This document shows, piece after piece, positions 1 to 62,808 of a stretch of 64,000 bases of DNA (position 1 is its first letter; every line of letters starts with the position of its first letter). The DNA lies in assembly GCF_003144115.1 (NCBI RefSeq), contig NW_020312016.1, positions 196,777 through 260,776 on the forward strand, written 5' to 3'. The position numbers were made by a program, and so were the translations under genes. The notes under the pieces are model-generated. The model was not told the origin of the DNA, ran no database searches, and was given only the letters and a program-made list of their open reading frames with translations. The DNA is from Tilletiopsis washingtonensis. Lineage: Eukaryota > Basidiomycota > Exobasidiomycetes > Entylomatales.

Positions 1-79
1 ACGCCTCCATCGCTGCGCGAGCCTCGACGCAGCGCTGCTGGTCCATTGCCAGGAAGTCGTCGTCGAGGAGGGCTGACAT
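1..79 (-). CDS. Tandem coiled-coil family, paralogue 0 (5' end only, cut by window edge)
   Basis: The ATG is at 79-77 and the reading runs off the left edge after 26 codons. The peptide starts MSALLDDDFLAMDQQ and continues CVEARAAMEA, the same kind of acidic start and Ala/Glu-rich helix as the six complete paralogues to its right. Just upstream is a typical acceptor (GCTGAC branch, then TTCACAG, intron end near 103), with a GTGAGT donor at 325-320, so the leader carries an intron as in its neighbours. Function unknown. Assignment to the family rests on position, strand, leader structure and a short peptide, so it is likely but not proven. Confidence 0.6.
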   Translation of the reverse strand, partial: MSALLDDDFLAMDQQRCVEARAAMEA

Positions 80-931
80 CGTGGCGAGTGAGGCGGTTCG
101 AGCTGTGAATGTATGGCAAGGTCAGCCTGGAAAGACACGCGCCTCGCTGACGCGCGCGCTGCCACTGCCGAGACGCCGTAGCCAGGACGACGAGCATCTC
201 AGCGAGCTTTTCCGCACTGAAGCAGTACGAATCTTGTCCCTCAAGGACGAAGTCTCTCTCTAACCCATCGAGGCGGACCTACTCAAGCGAGAAATGCCAG
301 GCCGAGAGAGGCAAGATCGACTCACCGGCGAAGGCGCGACACGTACGTGTGGCGGCCGTGCGGACGCCGTGTGGAGGCTGCCGCTCGCGGTGCGAAGCGA
401 AGGCGTGACGAGGCAGTGAAAGGCGATGAAGCGGGCTTGATGGTGAGCTGAAGGACAGGAGACGATGTGGTGGTGGGAAAGCAGGGTGCAAGCGAGCGCT
501 TTCTGCCCAAAGAGGCCCCTCGGCCGCCGCCGCCGCCGCCGCGCTCGATGCGGCGCACGTCCCTCGCGACGCCGCGCATCGCCCGAGAATGCGCGCGCCT
601 GGAGAAGACAAGCATCGTGCAGACATTCCACTGCCCTGCACGCTCATCGGCTGAAGTCGGCATAGCGATGCGTTGTGTCTCTCTCGCTCGCTCACAGCCG
701 GCTCGGCCACAAGCTTGCGAGATGACACAATTGCTTGGAGAGGAGAAACGTGACACGATTACATCGCAGAGAGGGGAGGGTGTGGAGCGTTGATGGTACA
801 ACGGAAGAGGGCGGAAGTGTTACAGAAGCTACAGATTACGAGGGACAAGAGAACAGCTGATACATGGGAAGAGAGTAGAGGTGACTCGGTTTGGCGAAAG
901 AAGGATAGATGCGTGCGTGATGGTGGTGGTG
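80..931. other. Intergenic: leader of paralogue 0 and 3' flank of paralogue 1
   Basis: Contains the leader exon and intron of paralogue 0 (about 104-325) and the CACCACCACA word. No other gene is supported. Confidence 0.5.
466..475 (-). promoter_or_regulatory. CACCACCACA element upstream of paralogue 0
   Basis: Minus-strand CACCACCACA about 390 bases before the ATG and 140 before the leader donor. A version of this word sits upstream of every array gene. Confidence 0.4.
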
Positions 932-2245
932 CTACGACATCGAGGGGTGGCCGCTGCTGCTGCTGCCTGAACTCGTTGGCGCATGCACGACGAGATTGAA
1001 AGCTATGAGGGGCAGCATGTGCGTCAGAGCGAGACACGTGGTAAGCACGACGTCTCACAGCCGCTCACCACTGCGCTTCCTGTTCGGCTCAGCGCTTGAG
1101 GACTCGGCCGGGCTGGGCGTCTCGTCGCGCGCGCGCGAGAGGCGCTCGCGTTTCCAGCGGTCGAGCGACGAGGAGATGCTGTCGACGGGCGAGGCCAGCC
1201 GTGCGCCGCTGAGATGGGGAGATGTGCGTAGACGCTTGGCGTGGCGAAGCTCCTCTTGCAGCTCGAACTCGGTGGGTGCCGCAGCGTTCTCATCGACGAG
1301 AGCGCCGCGGCCGCTGCTCTCGCTGCCGCTCGCCGCATCCGAAGCGTCGCGCGAAAAGATACGCTTGAGCTCACGAGTGCGCCTGCGCGTCAGGCTCGGA
1401 TACTCAGTCGAGCTCGGCGTCTCGTCGACGTACACTCGCGATGCTCGAATACGCATCCACTGATCGACGTCGAGCGCCGGGGAGAGAGAGTCGATGGGCG
1501 CAGCAGGTTCGGCACCGCTCTCATGACTAGACTTGCTTGCTGCACCATCACCTGGACCATCGGACGCGCCAACGTGCTCGAGATGAGACGCAGTGTTGCG
1601 CTGGAGCAGGGACGTGCCCGAGTCATTGCTTTCACTGCCGCTCGCCACGTCCGGAGTGTTGCGCGTGGAGAGGTACTCGAGGCTTGAGGCGCTCGAGAGC
1701 TCTGAGCTCGAGCTCGCGGGTGCCGGCGACGGAGGCGAAGGAAGCTCGCACGGACGCATGAGCGGAATCTTGGGTGCGTGGTCGGCCGTGGCGAGGGCAG
1801 GCGGAGTCTGCAGCTCCTGGGAGGATTCGGTCGGGCCCAGTGTGCCCTGACGCTCCCACCAGGCAGGCCCGCCTGCGTCGGAGGCTTCGCCGTCGTAGTA
1901 TGCCCACTCGGCACTGGCGCTCACGCTGCGCGTCATGGCATACGCGACGTGCGCTCCTACTGCGGCTGATGAGGCGGCCAGCTTGTCCTCGACTGCTTGT
2001 GCAGCGCTCTTGAGGGCGCTCAGCGCAGCCCTACGCGTGCGTCGGGCCTCCCACTGATCCGCTTCGGCGCCGGTCATCTCGGCTCTGAGAGCGCGGTCGA
2101 ACGCTACTTCTGCCTCGCTGAAGCGGCCCTCGAGACGATGCATGCCTTCGAAGGTGCTGCGAATGCTCGGCAACTTCGCCTCCAATGGTTCATCGTCATC
2201 GAAGTCGGAGTCCGTCGAACGACTCTCTGCGTAGTCCGAGTACAT
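932..2245 (-). CDS. Tandem coiled-coil family, paralogue 1 (415 aa, with internal repeat)
   Basis: Exons 1069-2245 and 932-1002 joined through a phase-1 intron (GTGAGC donor, CTCTGAC branch, CATAG acceptor). Residues about 33-90 form the family's Ala-rich helix (SEAEVAFDRALRAE, then RRAALSALKSAAQAVEDKL), followed by a Trp at 114. The rest is a long Ser/Glu-rich region with two tandem repeats of about 90 residues, then a basic patch (EPNRKRS) and a short terminal exon rich in Ser and Gly. The ATG lies just inside an exon opened by a GCTGAC...ATCACAG acceptor, with a GTGAGT donor at 2371-2366, so the upstream exon is probably leader. It is the longest paralogue, the extra length being the repeats. 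No signal peptide or TM segment; no known domain recognised. Confidence 0.72.
1106..1681 (-). repeat. Two tandem ~90-residue protein repeats inside paralogue 1
   Basis: Copy A spans about 1409-1681 and copy B about 1106-1369. Both run: (Y/F)LSTR or FSRD, then ASGSES, then a Leu/Asn/Glu stretch, then DS(L/I)S..LD, then a basic R-rich run, ending in DETPS. The ASGSES to DETPS distance is 73 residues in A and 69 in B. The other paralogues lack the repeats, so the duplication seems private to this gene. Confidence 0.7.
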
Positions 2246-3130
2246 TGTAGAGCTGTGATTCAGATCGTCAGCTTCGGCTCAGCATGCAAGCCGCAGAGCG
2301 CAATCCCGAGGCATGTATGCGATGCGTACAGCCAACAGATCATCTGCGCACAGCAAGGGAGAAATACTCACACAGACACGAGCGAAAGGGAGCTGGCAGA
2401 CGAGGACTGCGGCGCGACTAGACGCTGATCGCTCGAAGCGAGCCGCGTTGGCGCGTGCTGGTGCTTGGCCGGAGAGGCGCGACTGGAGAGCGAGAGTAGC
2501 AGCGAAGAGCCAAATGAGGAGGGAAAGAGGTTTGAAGATGCGGCTTGAGGTGACGTGGTTGGCGAGTGGCGTCTCGTGAGGCGGGTGTGGTGGACGGGAG
2601 CCAAGCCGCGGACGCCGCTGCACGCGTGATCGGGTGCCGCGCGCGCCGCTGCCACCGCTCCCGACATCATGGCACTGCGCCGTTCGCACAAAGTAGCTTG
2701 AGCCCTTCTTTGAGGACGTTCTGTCTAGTGGCTTGCGAGCTCAGGGCTTCAAAGACCCGCCAGCTCGGCATGCATGTCTCTGAGGTGAGATCTCGAGGAC
2801 AGGACCCGCTTCAAGCTTTCTGAGCGTCAAGCTCGCGAGCATGGACCGAGCTTCACTCTGCTCTCTCTGTGACCAGGCTTTGCTGATGTGTCGTACGCTA
2901 CAGGTGGTCGTGGGCTATCGAGATGAGGTACACGGCGAGAAGGAGAAAGCGGACCAGGGCGAGAAACGGGTGTGGACAGGAAGTGGTGTGCGAGTGCGAG
3001 GCCGCTCATGGTGACGACGAGACTGGGTAGCGCACCGCAAAGACTAGCATCAGCAGCTGCGCAAGGCTTACAGCTCGCGAAGCGGCAGCACGAACGCACA
3101 AGTATCTCTGCACGTTCTTCGGCTGGTCGA
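2246..3130. other. Intergenic: leader of paralogue 1, 3' flank of paralogue 2
   Basis: Holds a leader intron (about 2256-2371) and the CCACCACA word. A hydrophobic peptide can be read near 2460-2530 on the minus strand but it lacks a nearby ATG. Nothing else seen. Confidence 0.5.
2586..2593 (-). promoter_or_regulatory. CCACCACA element upstream of paralogue 1
   Basis: Minus-strand CCACCACA about 340 bases before the ATG; shared with the other array genes. Confidence 0.35.
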
Positions 3131-4173
3131 TCATGCCGGCAGCTTGGGCGAGCTGATAGGAGGCGCCGCGCCGTTGTACCAAACATCGATCGAACGCAGT
3201 CGGCGAGGAACAGGAAACGGAGACGAAGAGTTGCCGGAAGCTACATGCTCGGACGAGGCCTGCGCAGACGCCGTCGACACCTCCTGGCTAGACTCGCCGG
3301 CGTCGTTCCCGTTGAAGGCGAACGGAGCTGACGAGACGAGAGGGTCAGTCAGGCCCCAAAGTCCGCCATGTGGTCGCAGCACTCACTGGCCGCGCGCGGA
3401 TGCTTGCTCGGTACCGCGGTCTCTTCACTCTCGCGCTTCTGGCGCGACTCACTCGCGGCAGAAGACGAGGACGAAGAGCTGCGGACGGAGCCGGAGCGGC
3501 GTGGCTGCCCCTGCACCGGCTGCTCGTCTCTGTCGTCCTCTCCAGCGCCCACTGAATCCTCTTCCACCGCTTCGTGCTCCTCCGCCCCGCTCACTGCGTC
3601 AGAAGCGACTTGTGAAGAGGACGCCTCGGTGACGTCGTCCTCGGCATCGCCTTCCGACGGAGCGGGCGACATTGCTAGCTCTGCTTCGTCACCAGCTTGA
3701 GTCTTCTGTACTGCGTCCGACGCCGAGCTGAACATGCTCGCCCACTCGCTCTGCTCCACCACCACGCCAGATGCCGCTCCATACTTGCGGAGAGCGCGGC
3801 GTTTGGCCTCAAGGAGCGCATCGTGCGCCGCCCGGCGCGTCTGCTGCGCGTCGCGCAGTGCAGCTTCGGCCGCCTGCTCGGCCTCTTGCGCCTGCTTGAA
3901 GGCCCGCTGCGACTCCAGGAACGCAGCACCCGCTGCGCTCGCTTCTGCGAAGGTCACTTTGCCCTTGTCGAGATCGATGCATTCTGCCGCCATGGCGTCT
4001 GTGAGGCATCGCGGCGTCAGCAGGGACAAGCGGGGTAGCACAACTTCAGACAGATGAGGAGCGCCAACTGAATGAAGCAGGCCGAGAAGAGACTGCCTCT
4101 TATGCTACCGCACTCTCCAGCCAAGCGAGCTCACGCGAGGAGCAGACTCACTCCACGCGCCGTTGCGGCTCAT
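3131..4173 (-). CDS. Tandem coiled-coil family, paralogue 2 (276 aa)
   Basis: Exons 4152-4173 (22 bases: seven codons plus one base), 3387-3998 and 3131-3327; introns are phase 1, lengths add to 831. The first exon reads MSRNGAW and joins in frame to NAMAAECIDLDKG; the later ATG at 3993-3991 is an alternative start. The helix (FLESQRAFKQAQEAEQAAEA, then RRAAHDALLEAKRRAL) is followed by VEQSEWASMF with the conserved Trp, a long Ser/Asp/Glu stretch, and the basic SRQKRESEE...KHPR patch before the last intron. The last exon is a Ser/Pro-rich tail ending SPKLPA. It resembles paralogues 3, 4 and 6 most in the helix. Probably nuclear from the basic patch, but this is inference. Confidence 0.75.
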
Positions 4174-5100
4174 CGTCGCGGCGTTCCGAGCTGGCGTTGT
4201 ACACGCGCGCACTGCGGCGCAGAGGCGGGTCGTGCAGGCACGAGCGGGAGTGGAAGCGATGATCAGTCGAGACTGAATGGAGAAGCTCGAGGCCCGCGTT
4301 CGTGAGGTGGATGTGGTGGAGAGGAAAGAAGTGCGCGGCACGGCGCGCCGACGTGCGCTCTTCAAGGCGGCCCGAGCGCACCGCCGCGGCACCACCTCCT
4401 GACGGCAACAGCCTGCTCTGCTAGAATGGGCCGCGCGGCATGCGCACACCAGACATGCGGACGATCACGAGGGACTTACGCTCTATCAAACCCCTGCAGA
4501 ACCTGACGTACATCCCAAGCTTGCACTCTGAAATGCGCTGGCCCCCATTTCGTGCACTGCACGACGCCAACCCATCGCTGCCAGTCATGCTCCCCTGCGG
4601 CTGAGCCGAGCTCATGCCCAGCGCTCTGCGAGATATGACATCGGTAGATGGAGGAGATATACGCTGATAGAGAGATGCTAGAAAGTCGGTGTTGATCGGT
4701 CAAGTAGCGAGACGACGGAGGAGACAGAACGTTCACGGAAAGAGACGGATGGCCAAGGCGCACGAGGGAATCGAAGTGGGCTATAGGCCGGGCGGCAACT
4801 ACACGAGGCGGATTCGGTTGCAGAAAAGGGAGGCGCAGCAGGGGACAGTAGAGGCCAGCAGGAGAGGAGTGAGAGTGTGGCGATCAAGGATGTCACTACT
4901 CAAGAGGCGATTGGGAATGGTGGCGTGTGGGACGGTCGCGACCGCAGACGCATGGCGGTGCCCTGCTCCGGACCGATTCGATGATCGTCGCCTGGGCAAC
5001 TGAGTGACCCGCTGGCAAGCGGTGGCTTGAGGGAGCGGACCCCCTGTTGAACCGGAGCAGAAGGCACTGCAGACAGCGACGGCCTCTTTTGCGGTCATCA
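4174..5100. other. Intergenic: leader of paralogue 2, 3' flank of paralogue 3
   Basis: Leader and promoter of paralogue 2 (about 4174-4330). From 4,330 to 5,100 no coding, RNA or repeat signal is seen. Confidence 0.5.
4312..4319 (-). promoter_or_regulatory. CCACCACA element upstream of paralogue 2
   Basis: Minus-strand CTCCACCACAT about 140 bases before the ATG. Confidence 0.35.
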
Positions 5101-5951
5101 TCAGTAGATAGGTATCCTACTCCGTGTCTCCGCTGTCGGAAAGACTGGACGCTGAGACGAGGGGCCAGATTGTTGGACTGCGGTCGCATACAGTACAACT
5201 CTCTGCTCACAGATACTCACAGGCAGTACACTGGCGCTTCTCGGCCGACTCATCCTCGTCGCTGCTACGCTTGCAGCCGGCAATGCGATAGCCGACCTGA
5301 CCCGCGAAAAGCTCTTCCAAAACTGGCAGCTGGTCAGGCATCCGCAGCGCTTGCACTTCCTCCGACATATCCTCCTTCCCCGCCTCTGACGCCGCGCTGT
5401 CTTCGCTGTCAGACTCGTCTTCCTCTGCCTCGTCTGATGTGTAGGACGGGCCCTCCTCGTCTGATTGTAGCGTACCAATCTGAAGATAGCCCGCCGCCTT
5501 ATCGACGAGGTTCGTCCAGAGTCTGCCTGCTCTCACCTCCGCTGCCGTATCCAGCAGACTACTGCACGCTTTCTCTGCAGTCGCGTCGCGAGCGCTGCGG
5601 GCGTGCTGGTGCGCAATGACTGCTGCCTCGTGAGCCTTCTTTGCGGTCTTCTCGGCCTCCTGCGCATCCTCGACGGCTTGCTGCGCCTCTACGAGCTCGC
5701 GCGTGATGTCGGAGACTCCCTCCAAGTGTTCTTTGAGCGCCTTCGCACCCCATAGGGCGTCCGCACGAAATACCTCGTCGCTTTCATCAGTGCTTGGGCT
5801 GCTCTGTTCTGGTGAAGCATCCGGGCGGCATGTCAGCCCAGATGATTGGAAGACCTACGCATCTCGCCTGTGACCCGCTGCGATGCGTCGCCTTTTCCGG
5901 GTCAAGAAGGCGCTCTCTTGAAAACTCACTGCTGTCACTCGGTGACTCCAT
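5101..5951 (-). CDS. Tandem coiled-coil family, paralogue 3 (228 aa)
   Basis: Exons 5930-5951 (again exactly 22 bases, phase 1), 5221-5808 and 5101-5177. The start MESPSDS joins to KQSSPSTDESDE. The helix (ELVEAQQAVEDAQEAEKTAK and on) is followed by RLWTNLVDKA with the family Trp, an acidic run (SDEAEEDESDSEDS), and a basic patch CKRSSDEDESAEKRQ. An additional leader intron (GTAAGT donor near 6066, TTTTCAG acceptor near 6003) lies upstream. The final intron drawn here is 43 bases; an acceptor 23 bases further on is also possible and would change the last 25 residues. Function unknown. Confidence 0.72.
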
Positions 5952-6795
5952 TCCGTTCGAGATTACGAAGCGCCAAGGCGATTGGACGACGAGGCACCGC
6001 AGGGGCGCGGCTGAAAAGACATCGAGAAGCATGAGCGGGGCATCTCAGACGGACGGACGTAATGGACTTACGAATAGGGCAGCAGTCGAAAGTGCTGCGA
6101 GGATGCAGAGATGATCTCGGCGGTACGGCCGCGATGTTGGTGGTGATGAGAGAAGAAGGAACGACGGCGGCGCGCGCGCGCCCGAGATCGACCCCACTTC
6201 CGCGCGTGCGGCGGCACGCTCGGACCGCTGGCTTGAGGCCTGCCTTCCGTCGCAGCAAAGTTCATGAGCTGTCTTCAGATGATAGACTGTCAACACTTCC
6301 GCTGCATCTCATAAGCTCACTCAGGGAGGAGCGCCGACAGGACGAGCAGGTCGTGGATCCCCGGCCGCTTCGGCTTGCACTCTGTCTTCGAGGTGGACCG
6401 CGTGCTCTCCTCCTCTCTATCGCGCAGTCGTGAATCTGCTCTCTGCCTCCCGTGAGCTGTCAAGTCGATCGCAGAGAGCGCTTGATGGAACCAGCCACGC
6501 AAGTTGCGACACGCTCTCGTTTGAGGTTTCACGGAGCGGGACTAGGGCGAAGAGGGCGAAGACACATGGTAGAGGTGACCTAGAAGCGGTGTACATGATG
6601 GTGGTACGAGGACATGCGAGAGCTTTACAGGGAGGCCCGAGAGCTGCCTGCGAGGCGAGACGCAGAGGGAACGCGCATGCTCGGAGATGCTCAGGGAGCG
6701 AGATGACAAGGCAAGGTTCACGAGGCGCAGGCAAGTCGACGGAGCCTTGAAGCGTTGCCTGCAACGCGGCGCACATCGTGCTGAGTCGTTGGACG
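5952..6795. other. Intergenic: leader of paralogue 3, 3' flank of paralogue 4
   Basis: Leader intron of paralogue 3 (about 6003-6070) and its CACCACCAACA word. Nothing further seen from 6,150 to 6,795. Confidence 0.5.
6135..6145 (-). promoter_or_regulatory. CACCACCAACA element upstream of paralogue 3
   Basis: Minus-strand CACCACCAACA about 190 bases before the ATG and about 70 before the leader donor GTAAGT; one extra base compared with its relatives. Confidence 0.35.
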
Positions 6796-7824
6796 TCAGC
6801 GACGACTGCGTTCATGCATGCGTGCTGCGACTTTGCAACGTATTGCGTTAGAAGCGCCGAAAGCGGAAGGCGTACAAAGACTCACAGGTGCCAGGGCGCG
6901 GCTTAGACGGTCCAGCGCTGGTGCCAGCACGCTTGTGCGCGCGGGAGTCGCCTTCATCATCGGATGAGGGAGGACGAGAGCCGGGCAGCGGCACTGATTA
7001 TAGCCTCTGAGCCTCCTGATCGCAGCAACATGCAGATCCAGACTCACCGAATAGCAGATCGAGGCCTCCTCCGTCCAGCCTAGCCACAGCATGCGCTCTC
7101 GAAGTATGCTTGACCGCAGGAGCAAGTGGAAGTGCGAGTCGAGCGGGGCCAGCCTGTGAATGCGCCCGTACCACCGGCAGCAGGTCCTCCAAGCTGAGCT
7201 CCTCCGAGCTGCTCGAGTCGTCGCACTCCCCTGCTTCGTCGGACGCCAGCCCTCCGTGCTCCATGTCTTGCGCCAGCGATGGCGCAGTAATGCTCTCTCC
7301 GCCGTCACTCGAGCCAGAGCCATCAGAGACGGCATCTCCACGGCCTTGTCGCACTGGAGCCTGTCCACCTCGAGATCCGTCACAGCACGATGAACAATCT
7401 GTCTCCAGCGACGCTCAGCTCTGACGACATCCGCTCCGTTGATGAGCTTGCGGTTGACGCGTCTCGAAGCAGCGTCGAGAGCGCTGTACGCCACGGCGAG
7501 GGCATTCTGCGCGTCTATGTGGGCCTGCTTGGCGGCTCGCTCGACGGCTTGTGCGCCCTCGACGGCTTGCTGAGCCTTGAGGTAGGTACGCGCCGATTGC
7601 ATGACTCCTTGAAACATCTCCTTGGACTCGCCGAAGTTGTTCAGCGTGCGATCATTTTGCATCGCGTCGTGCTCCGAGCTTTGCATGGGCGCGCCCGCTG
7701 CGTGCGCGAGCAGAGAGTCAGACAGCTGGCGGAAGCTGACGTGCCGCCGCTTCGACTTGGGAAAGCACTCACCATCGCTCATGGCACCTCCGCTCACGTC
7801 ACCGTCACTCATGTGCAAGTCCAT
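6796..7824 (-). pseudogene. Tandem coiled-coil family, paralogue 4, with an apparent frameshift
   Basis: Exons about 7773-7824, 7048-7697, 6886-6993 and 6796-6830, all with family-type phase-1 introns (the last has a CTAACG branch). The helix (RTYLKAQQAVEGAQAVERAA, then NALAVAYSALDAASRRVNRK) and the Trp segment ERRWRQIVHRA are in one frame; the acidic half (VSDGSGSSDGGES, LASDEAGECDDSSSSEE) and basic end (RAHKRAGTSAG) are in another. The exon sum (845) is not a multiple of three, so one small frame change lies near 7340-7400. An unusual 35-base intron (GTTCAT donor) could also bridge the frames, but would delete residues conserved in paralogue 3. Mutation, assembly error or atypical splicing cannot be told apart here. 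Confidence 0.6.
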
Positions 7825-8799
7825 AGCGGCAGTCGAGAAAAGAGAGGATGAGGCGCGCGATGACTTGCGCAAAGGCGCGCGGCAACGCAGACTCAGTCGC
7901 CGGCAGCGCTGTGAAAGCGCAGATGCGTGAGCCAGGTGCCTGAGGGTAGGCAGGCGGACAGCACCCACAGATGGCGAGAGCAGCGATTGAGTGGTGAGTG
8001 GCAGATGCAGACGGCGGGTGTGGTGGTGCAGAAGCAGGTGCGTGCGGCCCGAGCGCGCGCATGTCTCGCTCCACTCGCCCTCGGCTGACGCGCCGGTGCC
8101 GTGCGGCTGCCAGCAGCGTCGGCACGCTGCAAAGACAGCGACAGCTCGCTGCTATACCGCACTTCTTCCCGCTCACGGCTGCGCTTGCTTCGACATACCG
8201 GCTTGCAGTCGAGTACTCCCGATCTCGGCTCAACCTGCTTGCAGTCGCAAGACACCTGCCTGCTCCGCAGACGTCGCGCCGGCTTAGCCACAGATGACCC
8301 TTCACGCTGAGGCAAGTGAGCATGAAGCACTCGACCATTTGCCTCATCACACGAAGCTAGCCCACCGTCTCACGCCTGAGTAACTCGGCGGCGCACTGCC
8401 GAGCGAGTGGTCCAAACGCAAAGCTGACTGCGTGCGCCGTTGACTGGGCTGCGCTCTGACATTGAGACATCGTGGCGTGTGGTACACGAGGTTCGTGATG
8501 CGGGACGAAGACTGGAAGCGGAACTGTCTTGTGGGTTTTCTGAGAAAGAAGAGGCTGCGGACCCGGTGGTTGGAAGACGAGACGAACAGACAGCGTGAGG
8601 CACGAGGTAGACGGACGGACGGTGCCGAGATGCGCTGCGATAGCAGTGGCCCTGCCGATGACGCCGTGTCAGAAAGGTGCGCTGTATCCTCCGCCGCGCC
8701 CCACTCACTCGAGACTCAAGTCAAGCGCACGCTGATTCAAGGGCGAGGCATCCAGCGGCGAGCACGGAGCATCTCCGAGATACCTGCGTGGCAGCTGCG
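7825..8799. other. Intergenic: leader of paralogue 4, 3' flank of paralogue 5
   Basis: Leader of paralogue 4 to about 8,040, then about 750 bases in which I see no gene or repeat. Confidence 0.5.
8019..8028 (-). promoter_or_regulatory. CACCACCACA element upstream of paralogue 4
   Basis: Minus-strand CACCACCACA about 200 bases before the ATG, identical to the copies before paralogues 0, 5 and 6. Confidence 0.4.
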
Positions 8800-9691
8800 T
8801 CAGCACTTTCTGTCGTTGACGAGGAGAGATCTGGGCAGCTCACGAGGAGTCGGCGCCTCACTGCGCGGGCCGAAGTCCCATGGATACTTGACGTCCTCGT
8901 CGACCATACGCTCGTTGAAGTCTTCTTCGCTCGCGATGGTAGAGCTGAGCTCGTCGTTCGCGGTGCGGCCTGTATGGAAATCACGTCAGACGTGGGACCG
9001 CGCACAGAGAAGTTGCGATCGCTGCGGTGCTCGACTCACGAGCGCCGTGCAAGCGACGAGTGCCTTTCTTTCCGCCGCGCTTGTTGGTCTCTCGCTTGCT
9101 GATCAGACGTAGGAGAGCCGTCGGGCCTGGGAAAAGCTCCTCGATCATCTCCTCCCGCTTCTCTACCGCAGTCTTGGGCTTGCACCTAGTCTTCTGCTCC
9201 TCCTCGTCTGCCTCTTCTTCGGAAGTGGCGCACGAGCTGGTCTCCGAGTCGGACGGAGAGGGCACGTCGAGCTCAGCAGAGTCGGCGCGCTCGCTGGAGC
9301 TCGGCACGAAGTTGAGTAGGCTCGCCCAATCGTCTTGATCGTCGACGTCGATGGCGAGTCGGCTGATTCTGCGTCCGAGACTTTCGGCTGCGGCGTGAAG
9401 CTCATGAATAGCTTGCTTGCGGGCGCGCACTGTTTCGACGTGTGACTGGCGAGCAGCAAGGTACGCCGTCGTATCGGATTTTGCGGCCGTGCTAGCCGCC
9501 TTAGAAGCGTCCGAATCTGCCGCAAACGCCAGACTGAAGGCTCTCTGCGCCCTGAGGTATCGCTCTCCGCTGCGCGCCACATCCTCGAGGAGCATCTCGG
9601 AGCGCTCGACCTCCATGTGTTTGTCATGGCGTGCGTCGCCGCTCGCCTCAGAGACTGAGTCGGTCCAGGCGTCGGTGCCTGCGTCGGACAT
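8800..9691 (-). CDS. Tandem coiled-coil family, paralogue 5 (273 aa)
   Basis: Exons 9040-9691 and 8800-8969 joined by a phase-1 intron (GTGAGT donor, GTCTGACGTG branch, TACAG acceptor). The start MSDAGTDAWTDSVSEASG lies six bases after a leader acceptor; the leader donor is at about 9754. The Ala-rich helix (RYLRAQRAFSLAFAADSDAS, HELHAAAESLGRR) is followed by DDQDDWASLLNFV with the family Trp, an acidic patch (TSEEEADEEEQK), and a strongly basic run (KRETNKRGGKKGTRR) that looks like a nuclear signal. The last exon is longer than in its relatives and itself acidic (TIASEEDFNERMVDEDVKY). No known domain. Confidence 0.74.
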
Positions 9692-10460
9692 GCTAGCTTG
9701 GTCGGCGTCAGCGTGTGGTAAGGAGGCTCCTGCGTTTGTGCACGCCAGACTCACGCGACTGAGCGACGCAAAGGTGTTGAGAGCCCCGTGTTGCGAGCCG
9801 GGGCAGTGAGCTGACGAGGCGGTGCGCAAGACGTGCGAGCGTGCTGAGAAGACGCCGCTGACAGTCGGAGGCAGGGCCAAGGACGGAGGCTGTGGTGGTG
9901 GCTAGGTGAGGGATGAGAGGCTGGCAGAAGGCGGGCATGACCGGAAAGCCGGCTTGACAGCACGCAGGCACTGGAGCAGTGACAGCCGCAAAAGTGCCGC
10001 TTTGTTGCTCGGTCACCGCAGCAGGAACAAAGTGGGTCCGCCACGCTCGAGGGACAAACGAGGGGAGAGCACGCAGCTGCGGCAGCTGCGGAAGCCCGCA
10101 GGCCGCAAGAGGGCACGGCTCATAGGGGCGGTGCCGCGTTTGCGGGTGACGCGGCCAACGCAAGCGCAGCCGTGGAAAGAACGGGTCGCGCGCCAGCATA
10201 CCCCCGCAGCCGCCACCCGGGGCCCTCTCAGTCAGTGGTGCGGAGCAAGATGCGAGGTGGCGCTGATTGTTTCAAGTGGTGTCTGGCACAGACAGCTGCA
10301 AAGTCGACGGTGGACGAGAAGAACAGGACAGACGGGCAACATGAGGGGAACAGAACGGCGAGGAACGGAGGCGGACAAAGCGTGAGGCCATGATGCGCTG
10401 ACGATGGCGACGCTGACGTTGAGATGCTTGCCGCGAGTCCGTGGATGATGACGAAAGCGC
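9692..10460. other. Intergenic: leader of paralogue 5, 3' flank of paralogue 6
   Basis: Leader intron (about 9698-9754) and promoter word of paralogue 5; nothing else supported. Confidence 0.5.
9891..9900 (-). promoter_or_regulatory. CACCACCACA element upstream of paralogue 5
   Basis: Minus-strand CACCACCACA about 200 bases before the ATG, about 140 before the leader donor. Confidence 0.4.
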
Positions 10461-11271
10461 TCAGTCGCGGGCAGTCTGGCGACGTGCCTTGAGCGGCGAG
10501 TTGGCCCGGGCGACGGCTGTGCAAGGGTCAGCGGGTATGTCTTGCGAAGGCTGCGCAGCGCACTCACCTGCGGACGCAGCGATGCGAGGCACTGCGACGT
10601 CGCTGCCCTTCTGCGCTACATCTGCCTGAACCACCTTCTGAATCTTGGCCGGACGTTCGTGCTCGCGCGCTGAGCATCATCCATCAGCGACAGCCACACG
10701 TCACGCTCATTGGCACGGTCGACTCACCTTCCTCGCGAAGGCGCTTGAGCTCTGCGGCCTCTTCCTTCTCTTCCTGCTCGGTCTCGCGGGCCTGGGCGCC
10801 GCTGCGAACCAAGTAAGGAATGCGTCTGGGCTCATCGTCTTCGCCCTCAAAGAGAAAGTATCCGGCGCCCTGGATGCCTCCGTCCCACTCGCCGTCGAAG
10901 CCGGTGTAGGAATCTTCACCGCCCCAATTGCCGTCCATGATAGGCTCCGCAGTATCTTTGCGGCTACGCTCGTCACAGATAGACTCATTTGCTGCAGCAC
11001 TGCACCCCGTAGCCCAGGTCACCTGGTCGCTTACAGCTCCTCGAGTTATCGCCAGCTTGACTTGGATCTCGTCCCACAACGCCTTGAGACCGTCAGCGGC
11101 CTGCTTGCGCCTGAGGCGCGCCGCATCGAAAGCGGTCGCGGCGTCGATCTCCGCTTGCTGCGTCTTCTCGAATTCCGTCTGTGCGTCGGTGAAGCGCTTG
11201 CCGACCTCGGCGACGTCCTTCAGAACCTGCTCCATGCCCTCGACGTCCATGCAGCCCTGTGCCTCGGGCAT
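10461..11271 (-). CDS. Tandem coiled-coil family, paralogue 6 (233 aa)
   Basis: Exons 10728-11271, 10568-10669 and 10461-10516; introns are phase 1 and lengths sum to 702. The start MPEAQGCMDVEGMEQ follows a leader acceptor; the leader donor GTGAGT is at 11358-11353. The helix (RFTDAQTEFEKTQQAEIDAA, then RRKQAADGLKALWDEIQVKL) is followed by VSDQVTWATGC with the family Trp. The middle is Gly/Asp/Glu-rich rather than Ser-rich (YTGFDGEWDGGIQGAGYF), and the Lys/Glu run EEKEEAAELKRLREE precedes the conserved intron. It has one more 3' exon than most paralogues, ending in the basic KARRQTARD. First gene of the array in transcription order. Function unknown. Confidence 0.74.
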
Positions 11272-12575
11272 CGTGCCTGGCGAGCGACCAGAGAGAATGA
11301 GCAGATGCACGGCCCAAGCGTGGTGGCATGCGCGCAGTGCGCTCGGGCAAAGACTCACCGGTGGGGCTTAAAGAGCGCTGGCAGCTGAACGTGCGGCCGT
11401 GCGGCGTCGAGATGCAAAGCCGACGAGCGCAGAGGAAGGTAAGGCGAGGTGCCGAGACGAGAGGAGGCCGCTGCTGGAAGGAGCTCGACGAAGCTGTGGT
11501 GGTGATGCGACAAGAAGCAGCGGACGAGCGGCTCACAGGACGCTCTGCTGGTGGCGCCGCTCGGGGCGGGCGTGGCTGACCCTGAAGCCCAGCGCGGGCG
11601 CCACAGCGGCGGCACTGCAGCAGTTAGAGTCGAATGACGGCGTTGGGTGCGGGAGCGCAGCAGCAGCAGCGCTCAGAATGCGCTGGCAGCAGAACGGGCT
11701 CGGCTAGGCACAATTTCAGTGTCGAGCCTCCCATGGACAGACCGGGGCAAGCGGCGGGCGCTCGTACGCTGCGAGACGACGGCGCCAAAAGGGGCAACGC
11801 CGCCAATCGCGCACGACGGCCGCGCGTCGGTAAAGCGCTGCCGTGGGAGCACAATACGCGCGCGTCAGGCCACGTGATGAGGGCGGCCCGCATGGCTGTG
11901 CAGCGCTGCCGCTGCATCCGAGTCGCCCTCGGGCCGTTCAGCCGCCGGCCCGGATCGCTTGGCCGCGGCGAAGCTTTGTTTGGGCTGCGGCACTTGAGCA
12001 CGCATGACGGCGCCGGCACCGGCAGAGCGAGAGCGGCAGGCAGCCTGCAGCGATGCAGCGCAGAAGCAGCGGAGGCGCAGCGGCGCGCGGCGGGTGCCTC
12101 TCCATGCGGAGAAGCTCGCCGCTCCTCGCCGTGCCGCGCTCGGCTGCGCTGATGCTGCTGCCGTGCCGCCCACACACGCGACGCGCCGTGACGTCGGATC
12201 CGCCGGCGTCATGGCGCAGCAAGGGTGTCTCGCCTTCGCTCCGCGCTGGGGCACGGCGTTCTCCACCACCACGCAGTAGCACCCAGCGTCAGCGCTGGCC
12301 GTCAAGCGCCGTCTTGGCAGCTGCGGGACATCATCCGCCGCCCCGCCTCCGGGTGGGAGGGGCCCTCGCGGCGAAGTGCCGCTGATAGCGGAGCGAGCGC
12401 TCGCCCGGAGTCTTAGTCCGCCCGCCGATCCATTTCGTGCCTGGCATCTAAGGTGCCGGGCGAGAGTGCGGAGACGTGCCCCCGCCGCATCGTCTTAAAG
12501 ACGCGCTTCTCGCAGCTCGCACCAAGCGCCAGCCCACCTCATCAAGCCCCTCACCTCCTCAAACCTTCGCCCACA
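11272..12575. other. Divergent promoter region between the array and ATH1
   Basis: Leader and promoter of paralogue 6 on the left (to about 11,510). On the right, leader of acid trehalase: a TCCACCACCACGC word at about 12,262 and a C-rich stretch before the ATG. Open frames here are GC-driven and carry no recognisable protein. Confidence 0.5.
11495..11504 (-). promoter_or_regulatory. CACCACCACA element upstream of paralogue 6
   Basis: Minus-strand CACCACCACA about 225 bases before the ATG, about 140 before the leader donor at 11358. Confidence 0.4.
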
Positions 12576-15500
12576 ATGCGCATAGTAGCCGCCTCGCTGC
12601 TGCTGGCGCTGCAGCTATCCCATGCCGGCGCGTCGCCGCTGCTGGCGCTGCGCCAGGACAATGCCACGGCCGTGCTGCCGTCGACGGCCAGCATGGCGCC
12701 CGAGCCGACGGGCAGCACCGTCTCTTCCGCCGCTGCCACGGCGTCGGGCACCGTCTCGAGCTCGTCGGCCTCAGCCACACCTGTGCCCTCGGCGTCCGCC
12801 ACGCCCGTCGTGCCCGAGACGACGGCGGCTTTCAACTGGACGGCCCGTGTGGAGACGTACAACGCGACGGCGTGGGAAGCGCAGCCCTATGTCGCCAACG
12901 GCTACATCGGCGCTCGTCTACCTGCTGCTGGCATGGGCTACTCGGAGAACCTTCCTGCTGCAGATGATCCGGAGCAGGGCGGTCTGGGCTGGCCACGTGA
13001 GTACGCGAAGAAGGGCGCGGCAGTACTCTTGCGGCTGACACCTTCCCCCAGTCTTCGGCCCGCGCACCACGGCCAACATGCTCGCCGGCTTCTACTGCTA
13101 CGTCCCAGTCGATCAGCCTACGATCGGCACCAACTACGAGCGCACGGACCACGAGACGGTCATCAGCCGCCTGCCAATCTGGACGGGCCTGTACGTGACG
13201 CTGAACGAGTCAACCTACTCAGCGCAAACGCCGGCCGAGGACATTTCCGACTACGTGCAGACGTTCTCCTTCCGCAACGGCACCGTGCAGACAAACGTCA
13301 CGTGGTCCGGTGCGCAGCTCTCCTACACGCTGCTCGCCCATCGCAGACGGCCCAGCCTCGGCCTCGTGCGCCTCGACATCTCGGGCCTGCCGCAGGACGC
13401 TGAGGTGACCATCTCGGATGTGCTCGACGGCCGGGGCGCCGCTCGCGTCGAGAACCAACAAGCAGGCGCCGTCAACGCCAGCGAGCTGCCCGCTGCGATC
13501 TACTCGTCGCTCTCGCCGGTCCGCGTGCCGGAGGTGACGGCGTACGAGTTCAGCACGCTTGTGCAGGAGGGCTCGGACGGCAATGCTACGCTCACATCCG
13601 CTGAGCTGCCCGTCTCGGTCAGCGCCATCATCGGCGCCGAGTCAAGCTCCACGAGCACCGCGTCGTACACGCTGCGTGCCGTCAACGGCAGTATCTCGGT
13701 CTGGAAGGCAGTGGGCATTGCCTCGCACGATGCCTTCGACGACCCGCGGGCTCAGGCTCTCAGTGCCGCCAGCCAGGCACGCGAGGCTGGCTGGGACGCG
13801 CTCGTGGCGGAGCACAGTGCCGAGTGGGAGACCATCTGGAACGAGGGCGGCGACATTGAGATCCACCAGCAGTCGCAGGAGGGCGAGGACTTGCAGCGTG
13901 TGGGTGAGTAGCAGCTCGGCGTTCAGGCGAATCAACGAGAGGAGATAGGCGCGTGCTTTTCGGACTACCAAGCGATCCTGGAAGGTCCACGAGCGATACT
14001 GACGCAGTCGTGCACAGCCCGTGCCTCTCTCTTCCACCTGCTTGCAAACGTGCGCGAGGGCTCCGAAGGACGCGGTCTTGGCGACAACGGCATCGCACCG
14101 GCCGGTCTCACCAGTGACGCGTACGCTGGTGAGTGCAGAGCTTCAAACGTGCCTGCGGCCGGAAGCTGACGCTGTTCACGTGTAGGCAGCATCTTCTGGT
14201 AAGTCAAAGACGCACAGGGTTATCTGCACCGCTGTTGCTCACACCTCATCAGGGATGACCAAACGTACATGATTCCGAGCTTGATGACGCTATTCCCCGC
14301 GTTTTCCGAGTCGTCTCTGCTGTTCCGGCAGAGGAACTTCACACAGCTGGAGCGCAATGCGCAGCAGTACAACCGTGAGGGCATCCTGTATCCCTGGATC
14401 ACAGGCCGCAACCCGGCCTGCACCGGCATCGGCCCGTGCTACGACGTGAGTCGCCCAGTCGCCCCGACAACAATGCTCTGGCTAACCGAAAGGCTGCAGT
14501 ACGAGTACCACTACAACAACGGCGTTGTCCTCGCGTACTGGCAGTACTACCAGAGCACCGGCAACCGCACGTTCCTCGAGCAGCTGGCGTGGCCCATCAT
14601 CGGCAACGTGTCCGAGTTCTTCGCGTCGCAGGTCTCCTTCGTCAACGGCTCGTACACTCTGCTAAACGTCACGGTGCGTGGGATAGGCAACGCAGCCCCC
14701 ATCGGCTCGACGCTGACGTGCTGTTCAGGCGCCCGATGAGTTTGCTAACCAGGTCAACAGCGAAGCCTTCACCAATGCGGGCACAGCACGGACCTTCGAG
14801 ATTGCCCTGGAAGCGTCCAGCATCCTGAACTACTCTGTGCCGAGCAACTGGTCGGAGATCGCGCAGAACATGGCCGTGATCAAGACCGAGACGCCGTCCA
14901 ATGACACGCTCGTCGTCGAGTTCGCAGAGTTCAATCAGACAGTCGGTGAGCGGTGCCGAGCCTAACGCGCTCAACAGTCGCTGACGCGCCGTGGCTAGTA
15001 ATCAAGCAGGCGGACGTGGCTCTCCTGACCTACCCGCTGGAGGTATCGCGCGACGTCCGTGAGTGCTGCAGGTCCCGAACCACCTGGGCTGATGCTGACC
15101 TCTGCCGCAGAGCCTGACCCGCTGGCAGACCTCGAGTACTACGCCGGCAAGACGAGCGCTGCCGGCCCGGCGATGACGTACTCCATCTACGGCATCGTCG
15201 CCTCCGCCGTCTCCGAGAGCGGCTGCGAGGCCTACACGCGAACGGAACAGGGCTGGCAGCCGTACGTCCGGACCTACACCCAATTCAGCGAGCAGCAGCA
15301 GGACGTGTACACCGAGGCCTCGCCCTTTAATCCGAGCTACACCTTCCTTACGGGCCACGGCGGCTTCCTGCAGAGCTTCACGCACGGCCTGACGGGCTAC
15401 CGCACGCGCACCAACACCTTCTACCTCGACCCCAGCCTCTTCCCGCAGCTCAGCGACGGCATCACCGTGCGCGGCATGCACTGGCACGGCGCACGCCTCG

Positions 15501-16111
15501 ACGTCAGCGTCGGCGGCTCCAACTCGTCGGTCACGCACGTCAACGGCACCGAGCCCATCACCGTGCAGCTCGCCGAGCGCAACCCGCTGGCGGGCAACTA
15601 CACGCTGGCGCCCGGCGAGACGCTCACCTTCCCGACGCGCCGCACGGATGCCACGCTCACGTCGCCCGGCAACCTTGCCCAGTGCAAGAACGCCACGTCC
15701 GAGCAGGAGTTTGTCAAGGGCCAGTTCCCGTACGGCGCCATCGACGGCTCGAACGCGACGCTCTGGTCGCCGCTCAACGCGTCTACGCCCTCGACGCTGC
15801 TCATCGACCTCGGCGAGCCGTACAACATCAGCTCATTGCACGTGAACTGGGGCCAGTATCCTGCAGAGACGCTCAGCATCCGCACCGGCCTCACGGCTGG
15901 CGGCGAGCTGACCGAGGCGGCCGCAAGCATGCCGGTCAACGTCAGCAGTGCCTTCGACGCCGCCAACGCGCTCGTCATTGACCTGGCCGAGGGCAACCAG
16001 ACGGACGTGACGCTGGCCAGCACGACGGCGGCACGCTTCGTCGCTCTCGAGATCCAGGGCTGCGCCACGGAGGGCCAGCTGCCGACGATTGCCGAGGCCA
16101 TCGTGCGCTGA
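12576..16111 (+). CDS. ATH1: Acid trehalase, GH65, secreted (1013 aa)
   Basis: Hydrolyses extracellular or vacuolar trehalose to glucose. Nine exons: 12576-12996, 13052-13903, 14018-14128, 14186-14198, 14253-14445, 14500-14673, 14729-14945, 14999-15058, 15111-16111 (sum 3042). A signal peptide (MRIVAASLLLALQLSHAGAS) is followed by a Ser/Thr/Pro linker to about residue 85, then the family opening PYVANGYIGARLP. The GSIFWD motif of GH65 trehalases is split by a 13-base exon (residues 462-466). Later come YPWITGRNPAC and TGHGGFLQSF. The C-terminal 150 residues (from CKNATSEQEF; LLIDLGEPYNISSLHVNWG) look like the F5/8 type C-like module of fungal acid trehalases. Many N-glycosylation sequons fit an extracellular or vacuolar enzyme. 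No key break seen. Confidence 0.93.
14186..14198 (+). other. 13-base microexon in ATH1
   Basis: Flanked by a TGTAG acceptor and a GTAAGT donor; encodes the middle of GSIFW, the Trp being completed by the next exon. Skipping it would shift the frame and destroy the GH65 motif, so it must be spliced in. Confidence 0.8.
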
Positions 16112-22509: not shown

Positions 22510-24393
22510 ATGGTCCCCGCTCCCACCAGCACCGGCAACGGCGCCGCCGCGTCGGGCTCGCGCCCGCTGCTCGACCCCAAGGACGCCGTCAAGGAGCTGG
22601 CGTCGTACGCCACGGGCGACGGCCTCAGCATGGCCGAGCTCATCGACAGCCGCGAGCACGGCGGCCTGACGTACAACGGTGAGGGCGAACTGGCAGCAGC
22701 CGCATCCGCTGCCGCCGTGCTTATCCCTCTCTCCCAGACTTCCTCGTGCTGCCCGGCTTCATCGACTTCCAGGCGTCGGCCGTGTCGCTGCGCACGCGCA
22801 TCACGCGCAACGTCGTGCTCAACACGCCCTTCCTCAGCTCGCCGATGGACACCGTCACCGAGACGGAGATGGCCATCGCGCTCGGCCTCATGGGCGGCCT
22901 CGGCGTGATCCACAACAACCTCACCGCCGAGGAGCAGGCGAGCATGGTGCGCAAGGTCAAGAAGTACGAGAACGGCTTCATCACCGAGCCGCTGTGCCTC
23001 AGCCCCAAGGAGACCGTCGGCGACGTGCTTGAGATCAAGGCGCGCCTCGGCTTCGGCGGCATCCCGATCACTGGTGAGTGTGCCTTGGCCTCGCAGACGA
23101 TGCACGCGCACGGGTACGAGATGAAAACAAATTCAACTGCTATAACCTTCGTTCTGCCGACGTAACCTCTTCGGAGGTGACCTGGGGACAATCAACTCAT
23201 GTCCACTGACTCCGATGCGCCGCACACCACTGCTTCTGTGATCCTTGCGCTGACACCTGTGCTGCTTAGACACCGGCGCTCTTGAGGGCAAGCTTGTCGG
23301 CATCGTGACGGCGCGCGACGTGCAGTTCCGCGACCCGCAGATCGCGCTGTCCGAGGTCATGACGACGGAGCTCGTCACCGCCAAGCAGGGCGTCACGCTC
23401 GAGCAGGCCAACGCCATCCTGCGCGACTCGAAGAAGGGCAAGCTGCCCATCGTCGACACCGAGGGCCGCCTCGTGAGCCTGCTGGCGCGCTCGGACCTGC
23501 TCAAGAACCAGAACTACCCGCTCGCCTCGAAGCTGCCCGAGAGCAAGCAGCTCTACTGCGCTGCCGCCGTGGGCACGCGGCCCTCGGACCGCGAGCGCCT
23601 GGCGCTGCTCGTCGAGGCCGGCCTCGACGTCGTCGTGCTCGACTCGTCGCAGGGCAACAGCACGTTCCAGGTCGAGATGATCCAGTGGATCAAGCAGACC
23701 TACCCGCGCCTGGACGTCATTGCTGGCAACGTCGTCACGCGCGAGCAGGCCGCCACGCTCATTGCCGCCGGCGCCGATGCGCTGCGCGTCGGCATGGGCA
23801 GCGGCTCCATCTGCATCACGCAGGAGGTCATGGCCGTCGGGCGGCCGCAGGGCACGGCCGTGCACGCCGTCGCTGAGTTCGCCAAGCGCTTCGGCGTGCC
23901 CGTCATCGCCGACGGCGGCATCAGCAACGTCGGCCACATCGCCAAGGCCCTGGCGCTCGGCGCCTCGGCCATCATGGCCGGCGGCCTCTTCGCCGGCACG
24001 ACGGAGGCGCCCGGCGACTACGTGTACCGCGACGGCCAGCGCTTCAAGGCCTACTCGGGCATGGGCAGCCTTACGTCGATGGCGCGCAAGACGAACAAGC
24101 TTGCCGGCGAGAACGCGGCGACGCAGCGCTACTTCAGCGAGGACGACACGATCAAGGTTGCCCAGGGCGTTACGGGCCAGGTCAACGACAAGGGCAGCGT
24201 CCTGCGCTTCATCAACTACCTGTACACGGGCATGCAGCACTCGCTGCAGGACATGGGCGTGCGCGACCTCGCTGCGCTGCGCACCGCCGTCGACGCCGGC
24301 GCCGTGCGCTTCGAGCTGCGCACCGCCTCGGCACAGCTCGAGGGCGGCGTGCATGGCCTCTCGTCGTACGACAAGACTCTCTTCGGCTCGTAG
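22510..24393 (+). CDS. Inosine-5'-monophosphate dehydrogenase (542 aa)
   Basis: Oxidises IMP to XMP with NAD+, the committed step of GMP synthesis, in the cytosol. Exons 22510-22678, 22738-23073 and 23270-24393 (sum 1629). The ATG sits in CCACC. The (beta/alpha)8 barrel starts at [11 protein letters not shown] and SSPMDTVTE; a CBS pair follows ([30 protein letters not shown]); the active-site loop is [12 protein letters not shown] with catalytic Cys350; IADGGIS binds phosphate, and GMGSLTSM and the C-terminal flap follow. Length is typical for the eukaryotic enzyme. The second intron is 196 bases, more than three times the local norm. Head to head with the methyltransferase gene (303 bases between ATGs). 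Confidence 0.95.
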
Positions 24394-60700: not shown

Positions 60701-62808
60701 TGCTCAGCGACGCGGCTGACTCGGGACGCATGTTTGTGCCCGCCGCCGAGGGACGCTCCTTCTCGCGGAGGAAGACCTCGATGCGCTTGATGCTGGCGTA
60801 GGCGCTGATGATGCTGGCGTACTGCTGGCCCATCTGCATGAGGGGCACCTCGAGAATGGCGATCGTCGTGAGCGACGTGAAGACGGTGTTGAGGGTGAAG
60901 CGCCGCGAGCCGGAGAGCAGGTCGACGATGCCGAGCGCCGTGAAGGTCGCTAGGGACATGATCTCGACGTTGAAGTTCGACGAGGTAATGACGATCAGCA
61001 GGCGCTTGAGGTAGCCCTTTGCGCATGTGATCTCCTCATCGCGGGCAGCGAGCAGCTTCTTCTCGATGGCCTCCTCGTACGCCGCGAACTTGACGCCCTT
61101 GGCATCGCGCACGGCAGACTCAAGCAGGTTCACTCGCGCATCCGTCTTGGCGCTCCAGTTGCCCTGCAGCGCGGTGATGTTCGTGCCGCACGACGAGGCG
61201 ATAGGCGTCAGCGCCAGGTTGAAGGCGATTGCGAGAAGCGTGGCAATGAACACGGCGCCGATCTGCGAGTAGAGGATGTAGAGGCCGACTGCGACGATGA
61301 CGACGCTGGACCAGAGGTTCTTCAGAGCAGATGTCAGTTTTGCATCGTGTACGTAGCCCAGCGACACGCACGTGGACAGGGTCGACAATCTTGACGAAGC
61401 GCTCGAGGTCGACGGAGATGAGATTGGCAGCCGCACCGCCGCCCGAGCGCTTGGCCGCCTCGACGTGCAGCTTGAGGCTCTTGGCGTAGAGCAGCTCGAT
61501 GAGGCCGCCGCGCAGCTTCACGATGGCCTTGGCGCAGAGCCAGTAGTACTGGCCTGTGCTAAAGGCCAGCACGGTGAAGACGAGCGCGTATGCACCCACG
61601 AGGCCCCAGCCATTTGACGTGGACTGCGGCACAGCGCCTTCTTGGAAGCTCTCGGCGAATGTCAGGGTTGCGCTGACCAGATACGGCTGTGCTAGCGTCG
61701 CAGCGACCATGATGAGGCGCGGCACTGCCGGTGCCAGCACTGCGCCCGGGAAGGAGAGCACGCAGACCCAGAGCAGGCCGCGAGGCGGATCGATGCTCGC
61801 GTTGGAGCGCAGCTCTGGCGTGTCTGCTTCGTGCTCGTCCATCTCGAAGTCCTGCGGCGCGCTCGTCTTCTCAGACGGCCACGGCCGCCACGAGCGCCGG
61901 CGTTGCGTTGCGCCGTGATTGGTGCCCGGCTGCCAGACGGACGCAATGCGGCGCCCGAGCAGCGAGCCCTTGAAGTCAAACGAGAGGTCGTCGAGGTCGG
62001 ACAGCTGCAGCGGAGCACGGAAGCCGCGCCAGATCGTCGGCCAAAGCCAGAGGAAGAGCAGTTGCGAGAGGAAGCTGGCGCGCGACTCTGCGGTGCCGTC
62101 GCGCTGAGAGGAGGTCAGCGAGGCAGCGGGGAGCGCAGTCGGGAGACGCACCGGCACGCCGCTCGTGTTCTCGGCCGCGAGCATGCCTGCCTTGCAGATC
62201 AGACCGACGATGGCAAGCGCAAAGAGCGGCGAGCTCTCAATTGCCGGCACGCGCGAGAAGGTGCGCACGCGCGAGGCGTCGAAGAGGCAGGAGGCGAAGA
62301 GCCAGACGGGCAGCCAGGCTGTGCCGCGTGCCGTCTTGCGGCGCTCAAGCATGGAGCCGGGCACGATTGCGAGCTGCGAAGAACGCCGTCAGCACCAGTG
62401 CGAGCCAGGCCCAGGGCTGTGACTGACAGACGCGAGGAAGGCGAGCGCGACGCCCGGCACGATGCTGTCCGCGTCGAGTGCCTCCTTGAGCGCATCGCGC
62501 TGCAGCACAAGCGCCAGCACGGCGAGCGAGAAGACGGCATGGACGGCAGCGAGGGCGGTGCGCACGGCGCCGATGGAATCCGCGCGGCCGGGCGCCAAGT
62601 CGGGCTTGCGCAGCAGCAGCGGCACGCGCACCAGCGCCGCGGCCAGCAGCACGACGGAGGGCGTGAGGAGCAGCACGAGGTTGGAGAAGCGCAGCGTGAA
62701 GTCGAAGGTGCGGCACGTCGACGACGGGCCCTGCGGAAAGAGTGAGTGGACGAGTGGATAGCGCGGCGCGGCACGGCTCACAAAGGCCGCGTCCTGCGGG
62801 CACTGCAT
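57737..62808 (-). CDS. ABCC (MRP-type) full-length ABC transporter (1525 aa)
   Basis: Ten exons: 62428-62808, 61372-62373, 60085-61319, 59383-60030, 59017-59324, 58942-58966, 58142-58885, 58031-58082, 57886-57977, 57737-57827 (sum 4578). About five N-terminal TM segments (LVLLLTPSVVLLAAALVRV and on) form a TMD0. The first core TMD is followed by NBD1: Walker A GRIGSGKST, signature LSGGQRQRVSLARAL, Walker B AYVLDDVTSALD. A Lys/Glu-rich linker and second TMD (FFSANPAGRIINRFSQDLF) lead to NBD2: GRSGSGKST, LSAGQKQLFSLARA, VLVLDEATSSLD and switch IAVAHR. NBD1 has Asp where the catalytic Glu sits, as in most ABCC proteins, so NBD2 is probably the active site. Likely exports conjugates or drugs at vacuole or plasma membrane; substrate unknown. 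Exon 6 is 25 bases. Confidence 0.92.

Follow-up and report, generated by a model that had tools for sequence, protein, structure and literature searches.

A row of same-strand genes at the left end of a 64,000-nucleotide stretch of the Tilletiopsis washingtonensis genome (hereafter the window; C19:196777-260776 of the 18.7-Mb assembly) poses a simple question: do its strongly diverged proteins form one family, and what might they do? The initial annotation of this DNA had described at least seven such genes, each encoding an Ala-rich coil followed by a Trp, an acidic block, a basic patch, and a variable tail. We analyzed the window together with 40 kb of its left flank, and the gene structures were read from the DNA sequence, without transcripts. 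We found six minus-strand genes, G1 to G6, that span window positions 1055 to 11271, with G1 the rightmost (11271) and G6 the leftmost (1055). The row extends past the left window edge to G7 and then to G8 and G9. The described layout stands for G1 to G6; of G7, a putative family member, only the first 79 coding bases (positions 1..79, minus strand) lie inside the window, and the remainder lies in the left flank.

G1 to G6 form one homologous family

In a held-out test, each coil module of G1 to G7 was scored with a profile built from the other six. The modules, all on the minus strand, lie at 10984..11271 in G1 (42.6 bits), 9296..9616 in G2 (34.1 bits), 7387..7662 in G3 (53.1 bits), 5501..5806 in G4 (35.5 bits), 3697..3993 in G5 (39.5 bits; this module includes WASMF), and 1916..2200 in G6 (31.5 bits). 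The G7 module scored 15.4 bits. Each protein was also shuffled 3000 times (1000 free, 1000 heptad-preserving, and 1000 local shuffles), and for none of the seven did any shuffle reach the score of the real module.

Real sequences served as a second control. The decoys came from the combined 104 kb, which holds 1294 open reading frames (ORFs) of 50 or more residues, the array members counted among them. Scored as whole ORFs, G1 to G6 gave 40.0, 27.8, 49.5, 32.9, 35.4, and 27.3 bits, versus 11.4 bits for the top nonmember. In a second scan of 2410 ORFs, some of them duplicates from overlapping loci, the best ORF outside G1 to G7 (cut pieces also excluded) reached 7.8 bits. The profile of all seven modules gave no convincing match to PDB sequences; the best of the 177635 scored 17.9 bits, which exceeds the score of the G7 module. 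Thus, the similarity of G1 to G6 rises above that of random Ala-rich coils, the comparison on which the initial annotation had staked its claim, whether the yardstick is shuffles, decoys, or the PDB. The shared coil was borne out for six of the seven proteins. G7 beats its shuffles, but as an ORF it scored 9.1 bits versus 8.9 bits for an unrelated ORF, and we consider it a probable, as yet unproven member of the family.

We also searched the whole genome; here and in the database searches below, matches are those among the best candidates scored. G3 found G4 with an E value (E) of 7e-9, and G4 found G3 with 2.8e-9. The other member pairs were G3-G5 (9e-4), G5-G3 (1e-3), G1-G6 (3e-3), G5-G1 (3e-3), and G1-G5 (7e-3). 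Apart from G8-G9 (6e-5), every match with E < 0.01 was to another member. Queries with G2, G6, and G7 gave no match elsewhere in the genome with E < 0.03, and searches with G1 to G8 revealed no convincing copies elsewhere, the weak matches on C2, C3, C4, C6, C13, and C22 having E of at least 0.038. Because of the held-out, decoy, and genome-wide scores, we regard it as near certain that G1 to G6 are one homologous family.

Several features indicate that the duplications are old and local. Module identity among G1 to G6 is 18 to 37%, and it is lower between genes that lie farther apart (r = -0.47; p = 0.03 by permutation), as is expected of local duplication. By sequence inspection, a GTGAGT-type intron at or adjoining the start codon is present in all seven genes G1 to G7, and a phase-1 intron near the C terminus is present in all but G6. 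No foreign gene was found within the array: none of 20 ORFs between or overlapping the members, selected from those of at least 100 aa, had a Pfam match at the cut-off. The earlier descriptions of an uninterrupted array and of old duplication with conserved gene structure are therefore upheld, the latter by the common introns, the profile scores, and the falling identity. We conclude with high confidence that this is an old tandem family with a shared coil, arisen by local duplication and, as far as the searches reached, lineage-restricted. In a separate codon comparison, third positions between paralogues are near random, and agreement above chance is greater at codon position 2 than at position 3 in 21 of 21 paralogue pairs, a result to which the protein-based alignment itself contributes.

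The shared module is a predicted coiled coil

To describe the module, we predicted the structure of a 102-residue G4 construct from an alignment of the six paralogues and two G1 relatives. The result was one unbroken helix (residues 6 to 101) with a mean predicted local distance difference test (pLDDT) score of 90.7. For the G1 relative P0003, the prediction was helical at residues 10 to 88, had a pLDDT of <50 at residues 80 to 161, and showed a short helix thereafter, with a mean pLDDT of only 53.6. The G2 module carries an 18-residue insertion within the helix, which equals five helix turns. Averaged by column over the first 72 ungapped columns of G1 to G6, hydrophobicity has a period of 3.50 residues, and 4 of 2000 shuffles were as strong. 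This period points to a left-handed coiled coil. The heptad signal is less clear in single sequences than in the G1-G6 average. Together, these models strongly suggest that the module of G1 to G6 is a continuous helix with heptad periodicity, a coiled coil. Judged by sequence comparison, the module is the conserved part of the proteins, and the tails have diverged past detection.

Gene models of the array

All of the genes are on the minus strand. The G1 coding region (10461..11271) has three modelled exons (11271-10728, 10665-10568, and 10516-10461) and corresponds to the public protein P0002 (FA09DRAFT_326382). The G2 coding region (8800..9691) is represented by P0006 (FA09DRAFT_340581). The late splices of our G1 and G2 models are those of P0002 and P0006, and G2 departs from its public protein in the last residues only. 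The approximate coding span of G3 is 6885..7824; no canonical GTGAGT donor accounts for a shift of reading frame that falls between about 7297 and 7387, and the middle of the model is tentative. G4 (5101..5951) has an uncertain last exon. G5 (3131..3993) has two exons (3993-3387 and 3327-3131) and the public protein P0001. G6 (1055..2245) has a single coding exon after the leader intron, and within its tail (1055-1900) a segment of about 95 residues is repeated; the halves match with 34.7 bits, and repeats are seen in the DNA too.

The public version of G1 differs from our model inside the protein. P0002 lacks the 22 G1 residues that hold the Trp, as though a 66-base intron had been spliced out. 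The relatives P0004 and P0005 read through the same stretch without a break or a frame shift, and the residue that covers the supposed donor is altered in them; we therefore think, from the protein letters, that it is coding there. The late G1 intron (10666-10727) splits the basic patch of G1. Its read-through, GESxVPxSxTCGCR, is nearly identical in P0003, P0004, and P0005, hinting at a conserved retained-intron form of G1.

Relatives and turnover of the family

When about 5.8 billion proteins were searched with a profile, the 8000 candidates with the most shared words were scored and gave five matches at E ≤ 1, all of them G5 or G1 and its relatives. Further searches covered the G1 group and G2. 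The G1-group search found only four G1-type proteins at E ≤ 10 (best 8000 candidates), and of the 3391 candidates in the G2 search, the public G2 protein was the only match. The close relatives of G1 are P0003, P0004, and P0005. G1 is 62% identical to P0005, and P0003 is 83% identical to P0004 and 67% identical to P0005. No relatives more distant than these were found at the sensitivity used. None of the seven array proteins (G3 represented by its first 123 residues) matched Pfam at the cut-off; six had matches below it, and G1 had none. For P0002, P0004, P0005, and G8, Pfam matches were likewise absent or below the cut-off. We found no mention of such an array in literature titles and abstract openings, nor of the locus tags FA09DRAFT_326382 and FA09DRAFT_340581 in the papers searched. 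In these searches, the family has so far appeared only in T. washingtonensis and in three closely similar sequences.

The two genes beyond G7 are on the same strand as the array, G8 at about 194.1 to 194.8 kb of C19 and G9 at about 192.6 to 193.2 kb. They are related to each other, with 18.3 bits for the N-terminal parts and 26.7 bits for the C-terminal parts (none of 3000 shuffles each). As read from the sequence, the layout of G8 is a different, two-part one: its N-terminal part is Ala-rich and looks helical, it carries a KR...K..R basic patch, and its C-terminal stretch resembles a leucine zipper. G9 is interrupted early by an in-frame stop and is probably a pseudogene. Neither showed kinship to the array profile: G8 scored 2.2 bits, which 76 to 89 of 1000 shuffles of each kind reached, and a G9 piece scored 6.9 bits, reached by 4 to 17 of 1000. 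The same G9 piece was the top nonmember ORF for two of the seven profiles (G1 or G3 left out) and shared first place when G6 was left out.

These data bear on the rapid change that had been ascribed to the array. The tails of the paralogues have indeed diverged beyond detection. However, the coil is conserved, and identity within the G1 group remains high (62 to 83%). One alternative reading is that these are genes of intragenomic conflict or self-recognition, of the killer/antidote or incompatibility type, acting via selective coil pairing. It has in its favor the one clustered array, the divergent paralogues, and the neighbor broken by a stop, G9. However, the conservation of the G1 group is unlike the turnover of an arms race, hydropathy reveals no membrane segment, and the homeobox and pheromone-receptor matches of this genome sit on other contigs. 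We consider this reading highly improbable.

Alternatively, the array could consist mostly of decaying duplicates, with G1 alone functional and the rest relics. GC at third codon positions is 0.65 to 0.76 in array exons versus 0.79 to 0.95 in seven of the nine other window ORFs measured, the remaining two having 0.61 and 0.73. This depression, the G2 search that found no relative while the G1 searches found three, the interruption of G9, and the frame change of G3 all fit decay. Against it, long open frames are retained in G1, G2, G4, G5, and G6, module similarity and heptads persist across old duplicates, and the codon position bias described above (with its partly built-in component) extends to every pair. 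We consider decay quite unlikely as an account of the array.

The tails share a composition, and the Trp is variable

In most members, the coil is followed by a Ser-rich acidic stretch and then by a basic patch, as the initial annotation had described. Compared in 28 pairs, the eight tails other than that of G3 gave one clear match, G8-G9. For G5-G8, among the next best, 20 and 7 of 300 shuffles did as well, and for G5-G1, 11 and 21 of 300. Since the tails resist alignment, the order of blocks downstream of the coil is compositional and not a demonstrated homology. The lowest net charge per 39 residues is -12 to -16 in G1, G2, G4, G5, G7, and the tentative G3.

For the basic patch, we scanned with a bipartite-nuclear localization signal (NLS)-like motif, [KR][KR]-x(8-13)-K-x(0-2)-[KR], which was chosen post hoc, and used 2000 shuffles of each tail as a control. 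The motif occurs late in six of the eight proteins examined (G1 to G5 and G8). On the minus strand, it reads KRESEETAVPSKHPR in G5 (3394..3438; also in 47 of 2000 shuffles), KRSSDEDESAEKR in G4 (5234..5272; 56 of 2000), and KRAGTSAGPSKPR in the tentative tail of G3 (6896..6934; 182 of 2000).

The Trp had been put forward as a hallmark of the family, and this was not supported. A W-x-x-hydrophobic-hydrophobic motif is present in only four of the seven proteins, G2 to G5 (WASLL, WRQIV, WTNLV, and WASMF). The motif column has a Tyr in G6, no Trp in G7, and a Val in P0005, and the stretch is missing from P0002. In the G1 group, all but two positions of the segment around DGEWDGG(I/V)xGAGYFLF are invariant among the G1 relatives.

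The claim that the proteins are not secreted agrees with our data. In eight proteins (G3 in part), the highest mean hydropathy over 19 residues is 0.94, and no strongly hydrophobic 19-residue stretch indicative of a signal peptide or membrane segment was found by hydropathy, with no dedicated predictor run.

Possible functions of the array proteins

We tentatively suggest, at less than even confidence, that the array encodes an old tandem family of oligomerizing, acidic, probably nuclear adaptors or coactivators. In this proposal, the coil of each protein would form homo- or hetero-oligomers, and the bipartite-NLS-like patch would direct nuclear import. The proteins, which carry no recognized DNA-binding domain, would act in the nucleus as acidic adaptors or coactivators recruited by partners. 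The acidic segment would be presented to targets, and the divergent tails may give different members different partners. Taken separately, the putative nuclear location is about evenly balanced, and a coactivator role is unlikely.

For the activator part of the proposal, we used a simple rule for acidic activation domains from PMC10550315, which has a strict equation 1, calling for an acidic tile with many W, F, Y, and L residues, and a looser equation 2. Equation 1 is satisfied by three tiles of G1, three of P0002, seven of P0003, and seven of P0004, whereas P0005 satisfies equation 2 only.

Several results weigh against the proposal. Equation 1 is satisfied by none of G2, G4 to G8, and the tentative G3. 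G4 satisfies equation 2 in two tiles, as do 123 of 500 shuffles, and 30 of 500 shuffles of G1 also reach equation 2. The G4 Trp segment is predicted to lie inside a confident rigid helix rather than in a flexible, activating stretch. G6 and G8 have only a weak acidic block (-8 and -6 per 39 residues, respectively). The motif scan found no bipartite-NLS-like motif in G6 and G7, and the post hoc motif is frequent by chance, occurring in 512 of 2000 tail shuffles for G1 and 671 of 2000 for G2.

Two other functions deserve consideration. The proteins could be acidic coiled-coil chromatin or histone-binding factors, in which the coil oligomerizes and histones or other basic proteins attach to the acidic Ser-rich block; they would then not act as activators. 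In G4 (-16), G5 (-15), and the tentative G3 (-12), the 39-residue tile of greatest acidity has only 2, 0, and 4 W/F/Y/L residues, a composition more in keeping with a site for basic proteins than with an activation domain, and the basic patch also counts for this reading. However, the Pfam scan found no known histone-chaperone domain, and the weak acidic blocks of G6 and G8 speak against it. We consider a chromatin-binding function rather unlikely. The proteins could also be cytoplasmic or cytoskeletal structural or scaffold coiled-coil proteins with incidental basic patches. The long helix is the sole strongly conserved and confidently predicted element, and NLS-like motifs often arise by chance, both of which a scaffold would explain; the late position of the basic motif in six of eight proteins argues the other way. 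A scaffold, too, lies on the unlikely side.

Other genes in the window

Directly to the right of the array is a plus-strand gene of glycosyl hydrolase family 65 (12417-16111), with a Glyco_hydro_65N match above the cut-off in 13039-13908. An IMP dehydrogenase with a CBS domain is encoded on the plus strand at 23254-24390, and an ABC transporter on the minus strand at 60084-61517.

Discussion

Lineage-specific (orphan) tandem gene families occur in fungi. The array resembles them in its local duplicates, common intron layout, lack of a Pfam family, and restriction to close relatives among the best candidates. It differs from them in the old divergence of G1 to G6 (18 to 37% module identity) and in its clear coiled-coil core. 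The secreted effector clusters of smuts are likewise clustered and consist of divergent small proteins. However, the array proteins have no hydrophobic N-terminal stretch, and we rejected an effector reading on hydropathy, with no dedicated signal-peptide predictor run.

The homeodomain mating proteins of basidiomycetes, such as bE/bW of smuts, have an N-terminal dimerization part, a basic nuclear signal, and an acidic part, and they form multigene arrays in some mushrooms. The array is reminiscent of them in its clustering, predicted coil, putative nuclear signal, and acidic part. However, a homeodomain was found by Pfam in none of the seven array proteins (first 123 residues of G3). In this genome, homeobox matches lie at C7:169215 and C22:40778 and an STE3 pheromone-receptor match at C1:611503; the mating-type genes are probably on contigs separate from the array on C19. 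We rejected a mating-type reading because Pfam found no homeodomain and these matches are on other contigs.

According to PMC8044209, the central activation domain of Gcn4 carries a WXXLF motif. Compared with such acidic activators, the array has the W-x-x-hydrophobic-hydrophobic motif in G2 to G5 and, in G1, a segment that satisfies the published rule. Unlike them, it has no recognized DNA-binding domain, the motif is absent from G1, G6, and G7, and in G4 it is predicted to be helical.

A more specific form of the adaptor proposal, which we consider very unlikely as a whole, is that these proteins are combinatorial nuclear coiled-coil adaptors that originated in Tilletiopsis and its kin. One pairing module would serve all members, their acidic tails would have diverged completely, and differing homo- and hetero-oligomers would show differing acidic surfaces to the transcription or chromatin machinery. 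In G1, the intron within the basic patch could serve as an on-off switch for the nuclear signal.

What the locus offers is an orphan tandem family in which a structural core has been kept and the remaining parts of the proteins have changed past recognition. The family is therefore a clean test case for the origin of orphan families and for the splitting of roles within them. If its members prove to be nuclear and hetero-oligomeric, they would constitute a home-grown regulatory toolkit of T. washingtonensis.

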